The translations under genes and the position numbers were made by a program. This document shows, in pieces, positions 27,601 to 33,600 of a stretch of 64,000 bases of DNA (within the stretch, counting starts at the first letter, position 1; every line of letters begins with the position of its first letter). The notes below the pieces were generated by a model that did not search any database, was not told the DNA's origin, and saw only the letters and a list, made by a program, of their open reading frames with translations. Origin of the DNA: Sipunculus nudus. Lineage: Eukaryota; Annelida; Sipuncula; Golfingiida; Sipunculidae. Location: positions 76,646,300 through 76,710,299 of the forward strand of contig CM049314.1 in NCBI GenBank assembly GCA_026874595.1, in the 5' to 3' direction.

Positions 27601-30600
27601 TTTGTTCACAAACTGCTCACATGCTTTAGTTTCAACATTAGGAAACACATGGTCAGGTCACAAAATATTTTTTGCAACCATTTCTTGCTCATCAATACAA
27701 ACCAATCATATAAACCAACCATGGCCTTTATTACCTCTCCCTCTTACACTTTATCTCCATTAGATATTATTTTAGATTTTTACCTTCAAGGTTAACGTCA
27801 GCTGAGCACAGTGACCCATAGGTCCCTTGTTTTTATTATGTGGCTAGTTAAAGAAGAGCCTAATAAATGCATGGCCCGATTGAAGCTACCCTCCCCATCC
27901 CATTTGGATCTCCATCCAACCGCCACCCTTGCTTACCGCCAAAAATTCCCCCAGTCCCAAGGTAGTCAAATAAGAAACAACCAGTAAATAAACAAAAGAT
28001 TTAACAGTGCTCATAAATAACAACAAGTTTAGACATTGTTTGTCATTTAATTATTCCTGTGTATTATTGACTGTCTCTTTATCTCTGTGTTTGTTTATTT
28101 ATGATGCACTGAAAACAAAGATTCAGTTAAGCAAAGAGATGAGTAAAAGATTACTTTTGTTTTAGTAGTCAGTGTTAAAGATGTACAGTACTTAACATCA
28201 TTTATTATATCCCACCCCCCTTCCTTGGAAGGAACGGGGGATATTGATTTGGGTTTGTCTGTCTGTCAGGTTTTTCATTTCTGTGCGATAACTTTCCTAA
28301 ATTTTATTTGATTTCATTCAAATTTGGGTCAGTGATTGCTCTCATACCTTTGCTAGGATTGGTTTTGGAGCGTCTGTCTCACAAGATAATGATACAATAT
28401 GATATTTCATTTTTTATATGATGAATCAGCACTGTTAGTTTCACTATTCAACAACAGGTGTCACTAGCGGTGCACATAAAAGTCTTGATTTATTTTCACC
28501 TTTTGAGCGTGGTTGAAACTTTTTGTACTAACGTTTTGATTATATCACATTAAAAGTATTTTACAATGCATGTATCAATCACCAAGTGATCACTTGAATC
28601 TGTAAATGCATGAAAATCACCATAGGAGTGGTATTCATGCATGTGGTCTAATGATCTCATGGTAAAATGTCATCACTCCACCAACTTTTATAGGAAGACC
28701 AGCTGGATCCACTGAACCATGGGATACATGTACCAGTTCATGGATATTCACATTTTCATGCACAAGGAAACAGCAATTTTTTCATTCATTGCACCTACAC
28801 ACATTCACACACACACATGAAAACACAGCTTCATTCAGATAATTGTAAAAACACTATTTTGATTATGGTTTTAACATTGTATGATACTTTACCATGGACA
28901 TGGTGTGTTAACTCTGTATGGTACTTTAACATGTACATGGTGTACACATAATGGACATGGTCTTCCCATCAAGCAAAGGGTCTACCCATAATGCACATGG
29001 TCTCCCCGTAATTCATTTCTCATTCTGCAGGTTTGTCAGCAGAACATTAGAGGATAATTTGTAATAGTGCAGGATGCATGCCAGACTAATGCTGTCAAAA
29101 TTTACTTTCATTGTATTATTTCAGTATTTGATTATTTTAGGAATATGTTCACTTCTGTTTCCAGCATAGAAGACCAGATAGAATACAAGATACCATTCAA
29201 CAATGTCAAACTCAAGCCAGGTGCAATACGTCGTCACTTCATCTCTGTACCCCAAGGGGCATCCTGGGCAGGTTAGTTCATATTCATTCAGTAGACAGCG
29301 CCCTCTGCTGGCAGTATCTCACCTGAGTTTGATTTTGGGCAAAATCCACTTACATTTAATGACTTAAGAGGACAGTAGGCTACTTTGTGCTACTTATCAG
29401 GAATTTGACAAATTTTGATGAAACTCAACTGAAATATTAACCAACACAATCTCTTGCATAAGTTTGATTCCTTGCAAAATCCATGTATAGTTAATGAGAT
29501 CAGAGGTCACCAGACTTTGGTGATGCTGTGATAAATCAGATGGATTTTCATGAAACTTGATATAAAGATTTACCTAAAGGTTTCTCATCTGAACCAAATT
29601 CTCGGCAAAAACACATATATTAAATGAGGTCAGAGGTCACAAGACATGATGGGTGTATTATGCACCCTTGCATTGGTCTTATGTTTTTACCTCATGCTTG
29701 CAATCAATGTTAACATTTTCTTGATAACCAGTTATACTGTCCTCACAATGTATTAATTACAAAATCTCAAATTTTCTGGTTGATTCATTATCAGCTTTGA
29801 ATGCCTGAATGATTCTCAGGCTGTATCCGCAAGAGAAAATATTCAGGATAATGATCCATTTACTCTGTCCGCACATTCCACTAGTTCGCATCAGTTTGGT
29901 GTACTGTAGTCCATTAGAAAGAGAGGTCTACGTTATTTTGCTTTACTTCAGTCCTGTTTTTAGTTTACTTGTTCCTAGTACATACAGGCAAATTCATTTC
30001 CAGTCTGTTTGAGGCCCACTTTGCTGCCATATCACCTTTTCAAAAATATAACTTTTTGCTGCAGTAATTTAGATTAACCACCAATTGTAAACTCATGTAA
30101 ACTGATTTAGGCTTTTAAAGAGAACCTCAGTGCAGAAGCAGAGGGTACTATCTCAAGACTGAACCCGGTAAACTGGTTTAGTAAACCGGAAATTTAAGTG
30201 TGAGACAAACTACAAACATTGGTGCTTGTATTAATGAGACCGTTCAGTCTGAATGTGGTATAGATTTATCGCATTTTACCTTTTCTACCTCCTACATACA
30301 GAACTACAGATGCAGTCTCTTGATTACGATAAAAAGGTCACATTCCAAATGGAGGCTCTTCAGCTGCCCCCTGACCCACCAGGCAAAGGTCGCCGGCTGT
30401 ACAAGCGACGATTTACGATCCAAAGCTTGGCTGCTGATACCAGATGTTTTAAAGTGGTTGTGAGTTGAAGTAGTGGGGGGTTGTGGTCACTTTACCGGTA
30501 AATTTTAAGCAAGTCTTCTGTGTGATATGTGGAAGGGAATATTGACTGAACAATTAATTTATTTTTTATCACTTACATTTACAACAGTGTTTACAAGTAT

Positions 30601-33600
30601 GACACATCTTTTAATTTTTGGCAATATTTGGTGTTGACTTTTATGTCAGATATTACTTAGAAGAGTCTGATTGTATTCACAATGTACTAAAAAAATCAAA
30701 GCACAACTGTTTATTTCTGTCCATAGCAAACACATGGAATGCTTGTTTATGATAACTGTTACAAAAGCACTGAAATAGTCTGGTACCCTTCTCAAAATTT
30801 TAGGCCCATCAAATGCAGGTAGTGGGATACATTGATCTCAGGTTATCTCAAATTAACATTGCCATTGGCAGTGTCATGCATGTCTGATGCCTGTTACTAT
30901 TGTGGTTATTGGTTTCTCCTTATGAGCAGGGTACCAGACTACACTGAATATTATCATTTGTTATTTCACCTGGTACTAGTACTAAGCCTTGTTTTTGTTT
31001 CCTTGCACTATTTTTGTCACTTTTCTCTGCTTTCTCTAACTTAGTACAAATGTCTAATTAGTGCAAGAATCATATTTTTTAATTTAACAATAATTAAGAC
31101 ATTCTGTAACAGTGTTCTGGCCTAACCAACAAGACCAAATATCTAAAAATAATGATGGAGAAAAAACAGTTCACTGTATTCACTGACCATTGAAAAAAAA
31201 CAGGAGTTCATTTAACAAAATTACTAAAAATTACTTTGTGTAAGATGCCACATATATTATGAATAACCAGTGCCTGCAGATTAATCGAACAGTTACTTGT
31301 GGGGACAACATTAGGGGTCATCTGGTCATCTATGTATAATTAAAAAATACAACAAACAGGAAGATTAAAAATATTATAGTCCATCCCACCAAATGTACAC
31401 TCTCTGTACAGCCGTTATGCACTGCAGTCATTGAAGACCTCCTTTGCTTTAACCGCTGCTGTGTCCAGCATTTTTTGTTTGTTTCTACAACAGGGCTGGC
31501 AGAGAGCTGAGCATTGTCATCAGATCAATGAGAGTGGGTTGTTGTGGGTTTGAAACATGGAGATGGATGCACAATGAGATACGACGCTTTTATTGGTCTG
31601 AAAACAATTCTTGGCTCTGTGCCAGCCCTGGTGGTGAAACCCAGAGATTTTTGCAATACAAAGCAGTGTTAAAAAAAATAGATATAGAATGACTACAGTG
31701 TATAACCACTGTATGAGGGGTTTACATCAAGGGGCATCCATCAGTTTTTGGCAAATTTTATTTACAATTTATTTTGTAAAATCATCTGTCAGTTAATCAA
31801 TCAGGTACTCTGGCGGTTATTTATATGGAAACCATCACCACACCTTGCAAAGAATTTGAGTGCAACAACCACTGTAATATCTGAGAAAAGATATTTTTTT
31901 CACGTCATATTGACTGAAGTGGCAAGGGCAAGAACACTTCTGGATGGAAGCTGATTAAATGATGATTCTGCTTGGTACCAGAAATATAAGGGAACACAAT
32001 GTCAGCTGAAAGACGCCATCTGTGCTCAGTCAATTTACATGGAAACATGATTTATATTTTTATTAAATTTTTTTCATTCTCTTTCAGTTGAGTGCACATA
32101 ATTTTCTTCCATTGTATAACATAATACTGGACAGAAATATCAATATTACTGCTAAGCACCAATGGATGCCCCTTGGTGTGATGGACTCTAATAATTTAAT
32201 TTAACTATTAATAGTGTAATGATTATTTTTCACTTTATAATTTCAAAGTTTCATATATTCATGGTGCTTGGTAGAATCTTGAAATACCTTGTTGCTAGTA
32301 AGTCAGGAAAGCTCATCTAATTGGTAGTTTTAAATTTCAACATTGTTCATTTTATCCATTTTCCCTTGGCATCTGTTGCTTATCTATTAATTTAGTTGAA
32401 AATTAATTGAAAAAAACCCTTAAAATGCTTCTTAAATTTGGTACCTCAGAGTGAAACTTTGTGTATTCAGTTGTTCATTGTTAATGAAATCAGAGAAAGG
32501 CGCAAAACTTGTAAGGCAACAAAAATGGAGCCATTTGCATATCAGAAAACAGGATATTAGTTGCCATGGAGACCAGATTTGTTTAGCCACTCGGTGGTAT
32601 TCACTTGGATTTTGAGAAATTTTAATTTGAACTAATGAGAATTTTTTTTTGTTTCAGTTTTGCGCCTTCGCTCTAAAGATAATGAAAAGAACTCACGTTA
32701 TCTGCTGCATGCGATGCAGTTGTTGCCACAGCAACAGTACAAGGCCACTAGTTTTGATAAATTCATCACCTTGTCCGAGCATGGTGACACATGCCAGGCG
32801 TTTGAAGTAGCTGTAAGTATAACATAAGCTTAACGACTATTTTAACGTCTGTCATGTTATCTAGTTATGTGATGTACCCTGGATGTTGTCATCCTAAAAT
32901 TCTTAGGAAATATTATTTACAACCTAACAAGTTATACATGTGGAAAACTAAATATCAGTATACATTTTTGTGTGCATCTGAATAAAATTGAAATCTAGTT
33001 TGATAAAAAATTACTGTTTGACACAGAGTGCATACCTATAACACTTTCAGAAACATGCATTTTATTTATTTTTTAAAAATTTAATTATGATATAAATATT
33101 TATACAAATATTTATTCAATCTTTATCACTCAAATAATTAATCTTCCTTCCACTATAAAAATGCATAATAACCATTGCTAAGAACTTTGAATAAAGAGTG
33201 TTAGCTTGCCCCTCCCTGTTCATTAGCTTTGCAAAGAAGATTAAAAGCAGTCTGTCACTAAATCATGAACCTTGAGAAAAAATTAATCCCATTCTACCTC
33301 ACCATGTTCAGTGTTTGCTTAAATTGTTCAGTGAGAAACTATTGCCAAACTATCAGTCATAGCACAACTTTTTCACAACCTAATGCTGTCAACAAGTCCC
33401 ATCATGTTATTATCTACTCATCCTTGGTGAAATGATGCCTTAAAATGGTCAATTCCTCCCTGCACTGTTTGTGTCCCTGCACTAATGTCCACTGTTATTT
33501 GTTAAAATCTTTTGCATGCATCACTAAAAAATTCTCAAAATTTCATTCCTTTTTTTCTTTTTCTCTCACTTAATGATCTAACTATATTTCCATGCATGAA

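Follow-up and report, generated by a model that had tools for sequence, protein, structure and literature searches.

Two neighbouring exons of the TPP2 gene of Sipunculus nudus, here called a and b, quite probably descend from an old tandem duplication of one coding exon and now form a mutually exclusive pair. They lie in tandem between the constitutive exons W15 (29165-29271, 107 nt) on the 5′ side and W17 (34060-34176, 117 nt) on the 3′ side, all on the + strand of the window, by which we mean the whole 64-kb stretch of DNA that was analysed. Exon a (30302-30459, 158 nt) is the divergent alternative exon, recognised by its homology to b, by the Pfam TPPII_GBD profile in context, by its codon-position pattern and by its splice sites. 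Exon b (32658-32812, 155 nt) is the ordinary TPP2 segment, recognised by TPPII_GBD alone, by alignment to the fly structure 3lxu and by having the better acceptor of the two. W15 and W17 were placed by matches to human TPP2 and by GT-AG borders, and W15 also by phase.

Exon pair and reading frame

Exons a and b are both entered in phase 1 and left in phase 0, with GT-AG borders; acceptor scores are 8.3 for b versus 3.8 for a, and the 2198-nt intron between them (30460-32657, + strand) has U2-type borders. W15-a-W17 and W15-b-W17 are both open, and single inclusion of either exon keeps the modelled frame. Joint inclusion brings a stop inside b in the shifted frame, with nine splice junctions more than 55 nt downstream, and skipping of both brings an early stop in W17, with eight such junctions (counted in an earlier 26-exon gene model that held 68 nt of non-coding DNA and also served for codon training). 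A stop with junctions more than 55 nt downstream is the usual setting for nonsense-mediated decay. The sequence-only reading had described this tandem arrangement, its lengths, phases and good splice sites just as we find it, and its argument that the frame leaves exactly one exon usable is borne out by the two stops. Of the readings considered, mutually exclusive splicing explains this candidate pair best.

The message with both exons also bears on a different account, in which a would be a poison exon: included mainly alongside b, it would break the frame and lower the TPP2 level, and little or no a-form protein would be made. The stop with nine junctions downstream is compatible with that role. 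Protein homology would be superfluous in a poison exon, however, and a retains both its match to the domain profile between W15 and W17 and the codon-position pattern described below; we regard this account as unlikely.

Gene model and locus

TPP2 is the one recognisable gene in the window, on the + strand, from 566 (matching codon 55 of human TPP2) to 63064 (the end of the last modelled coding exon). The spliced model has 27 coding exons after one exon was mended (26 before), giving 35216-35316 and 36718-36817 on the + strand, and is open throughout with either a or b. A candidate extra exon near 40253-40367 was left out, and b was placed by hand; neither b nor a was among the tblastn matches of human TPP2 at E ≤1. 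The TPP2 domains are collinear within one gene, as seen from the exon-by-exon match to human TPP2 and from matches to PF12580 and PF21316; the human TPP2 sequence used in all comparisons is a provisional one.

The genome searched amounts to 1.43 Gb, and counts of matching places in it are lower bounds. The W15-b-W17 protein matched at least three places, which are W15, b and W17 of this locus, and exon a at least one; the TPPII_GBD profile matched, at the least, W15, b and W17, and these only. For retrocopies or paralogues showing the spliced form, the genome search gave this TPP2 locus only, again as a lower bound, and the locus looks single-copy in these searches. Of the pattern matches in viral contigs (7) and prokaryote contigs (138), none was confirmed as a relative.

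Several TPP2 introns hold tandem arrays. The largest (51032-61402, within one intron) has a 54-nt unit in ∼192 copies with 95% matches, and very long open reading frames on both strands there are part of the array. Others have a 45-nt unit in ∼104 copies (14202-18879) and a 63-nt unit in ∼12 copies (37229-37965).

Homology of the two exons

Global alignment of the a and b peptides under BLOSUM62 (used here in place of the WebScipio score of PMC5740500) gives 16 identities in 51 positions (31%) and a score of 39, which lies 6.6 SD above shuffled peptides and was reached by none of 5000 shuffles; in a four-sequence MAFFT alignment 13 of 52 positions are identical. As a control, 820 open segments bounded by AG and GT, of the right phase and 140-176 nt long (714 on the + strand and 106 on the − strand, with overlapping alternatives counted), were scored against b; the best that overlaps neither a nor b scores 1. 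The relation of the two peptides from end to end at ∼30% identity, noted earlier from the sequence, is confirmed by these figures.

Exon b scores 86 against the human segment and 62 against fly 3lxu. The score of a is 23 against human (0/5000 shuffles reach it) and a weak 7 against fly (8/5000 shuffles). Since b scores above a against both, we take b as the ordinary TPP2 segment and a as the divergent one. It had also been claimed that human TPP2 has room for one such segment; this stands for the human protein sequence compared here. A single segment in the human and fly proteins is expected of either form here, so these proteins are silent on a second exon in their genes.

Profile scores follow the same order. 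Placed between W15 and W17, the b form scores 116.3 bits against TPPII_GBD and the a form 77.5, versus 42.2 with no exon, 53.7 with a reversed, 44.9-52.3 with nine shuffles of a, and 48.4 and 43.4 with hand-typed strings. Taken alone, exon b scores 44.9 bits and exon a matches no Pfam family at E ≤1; searches of the genome at E ≤10, with the b-form protein or with TPPII_GBD, also miss a. In the comparison with 3lxu the scores are 73.9 bits for the b form and 52.3 for the a form, which include whatever the flanks W15 and W17 contribute. Judged by these alignments, exon a is homologous to b.

Probable selection and age of the duplication

Of 51 codons aligned globally between a and b, 27 agree at position 1, 27 at position 2 and 15 at position 3; the MAFFT alignment, with 52 codons, gives 24, 27 and 12. 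Third-position identity (0.29) is close to the 0.27 found for 707 unrelated + strand segments, while at positions 1 and 2 together it is 0.53 (54/102); there the same segments average 0.32 and never exceed 0.52. Because protein-guided alignment favours positions 1 and 2, we also simulated neutral decay of b, starting from the present-day exon and without insertions or deletions. Copies as good as a, namely with no stop, a score ≥39 and at most 15 identical third positions, arose in 0, 1, 0, 0, 0, 1 and 0 of 10 000 runs at seven distances. Third positions that look random, with positions 1 and 2 alike beyond neutral decay, support selection for protein coding. Codon usage (0.23 for a and 0.16 for b; of 127 non-coding segments, 3 that all overlap one another reach a, and 8 reach b) fits coding in a, as modest evidence only. 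It is probable that a arose by an old duplication of coding sequence and was kept under selection, in agreement with what had been proposed from its divergence.

These figures also weigh on the idea that exon a has died since the duplication: that splicing no longer includes it and that its frame is open by luck. Greater divergence than b, a weaker acceptor and the missing profile match for a alone speak for this idea. Yet neutral decay yields an open copy that is this similar and has such third positions in no more than 1 of 10 000 runs per distance, and the splice sites of a are intact; we hold the idea to be improbable, to about the same degree as the poison exon.

At the DNA level the likeness of a and b is at chance (87/200 shuffles reach the exon score), as is that of their flanks (145/200 upstream and 21/200 downstream). 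The two are therefore not alleles, and an assembly artefact, e.g. two haplotypes laid end to end, can be dismissed as highly improbable given also that W15 and W17 match one place each.

Among the 26 modelled exons, b is the sole clear source of an exon duplicate (z 9.6; + strand, lengths within 15%). Top candidates for duplicates of five other exons (z 5.0-6.0, scores 1 to 25) were rejected, none lying in an intron adjoining its own exon.

Position in the protein

The segment encoded by the pair lies within TPPII_GBD, where b covers positions 21-73 of 91. It is apart from exons 8395-8549 and 19532-19665, the translations of which hold what we take, from their motifs, to be the catalytic His and Ser regions. 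The difference of ∼52 residues had been placed outside the catalytic part of the enzyme, and this location agrees. The a peptide has 10 K+R, 6 D+E and 4 P, and the b peptide 7 K+R, 6 D+E and 1 P. By its place in the profile, the exon swap is one that alters the core of a non-catalytic domain; its effect on enzyme assembly is a matter of speculation.

Structural routes to exclusivity

Competing RNA structures were sought in three intron pairs, where the best pairings were reached by 22/30, 13/30 and 27/30 shuffles and so stay at the level of chance. Steric hindrance was rejected, the a-b intron (2198 nt) being too long, and so was a U2/U12 mismatch: the donors are U2-like and no U12 branch motif occurs within 60 nt before the three acceptors. 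The a-b intron also contains a 160-nt palindromic element (31481-31640), which gave 59 matches in the 40 places scored of 1193 genome candidates and so is a dispersed repeat.

Proposed mechanism

We propose that each pre-mRNA has W15 spliced to one of the two exons, a or b, and that exon spliced to W17. A message that holds both exons, or neither, would have a premature stop followed by eight or more junctions; nonsense-mediated decay would dispose of it, so that the reading frame would enforce exclusivity by penalising every wrong product. The choice between a and b would be set by splicing factors; because no structural route to exclusivity was seen, regulators not apparent in this sequence would have to make it. 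The stronger acceptor of b suggests that b is the likely default and a the regulated form. On this view the animal probably makes two forms of the enzyme. The two proteins would differ by the central 52-53 residues of a galactose-binding-like domain, with the a stretch proline-rich and more basic, and the swap might tune contacts or assembly while leaving the catalytic site untouched.

Other features of the assembly

A COX1 search of the assembly gave 11 matches: nine near-identical ones and one other, all of bacterial type, and one short match on contig C5 with a stop. No contig among them was recognised as mitochondrial. The nine near-identical bacterial-type cytochrome oxidase genes (L008-L015 on contigs C60, C61, C62, C66, C72, C74 and C89; also on C75) have a best match of 58% identity in named prokaryote genomes, and perhaps represent several strains of a single, little-known associated bacterium. 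Two of the nine, both on C89, are 2,038,877 bases apart. The C1q domain gave 141 matches, on many contigs, in the 150 places scored of 203 genome candidates; C1q expansions are known from bivalves. An uncontrolled search for mollusc haemocyanin and annelid linker families yielded no match.

Comparison with known systems

Pairs of mutually exclusive exons are a familiar gene arrangement, and in the open-licence literature we found no earlier report of one in TPP2. Like the mutually exclusive exons of the human atlas, by the criteria given in the main text of PMC5740500, a and b are neighbouring internal exons of similar length and the same frame, GT-AG compatible and stop-free, with related peptides. 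In both cases the frame shifts when the two exons are included together, and the atlas accepts reads joining the two exons of an exclusive pair if they are frame-shifting, so a design enforced by frame is ordinary for such pairs. The gene is a different one, TPP2 being unnamed in that main text, and the present pair is known from sequence alone.

The coq-2 pair of helminths, molluscs and annelids, as presented in the main text of PMC7434440, is alike in that one internal exon of an enzyme gene exists in a second, alternative version, which for coq-2 is absent from human. It concerns another gene and enzyme, and was established by RNA-seq and exon deletion, in contrast to the sequence evidence used here. 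Fly TPP2 (PDB 3lxu) belongs to the same gene family and has the same domain, to which b aligns end to end; the solved chain has a single segment, nearer to b.

Among the open-licence papers listed, titles, abstracts and passages yielded no description of mutually exclusive exons in TPP2. Neither TPP2 nor tripeptidyl is mentioned in the main texts of PMC5740500, PMC9741552 and PMC9013439, nor TppII or tripeptidyl in that of PMC3303723, nor TPP2 in that of PMC7434440, and the words splice, exon and variant have no occurrence in the main text of a TPPII review (PMC2933905). Infection-linked splicing changes the isoform expression of TPP2 among other genes, in a passage that describes no exon pair (PMC5012649).

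According to the main text of the review (PMC2933905), complex formation is the sole demonstrated way of TPP2 activation. A tentative and rather doubtful extension of our reading is that in this animal lineage the gene makes two selected TPP2 isoforms with a differing core of the galactose-binding-like domain, exon choice tuning how the giant complex assembles or how active it is. Such a splicing switch is not known for TPP2. If the pair is what it appears to be, a protease would join the genes with exclusive exon pairs, and a natural variant pair of one domain, retained since an old duplication, would serve as a tool to probe the role of that domain in the giant particle.
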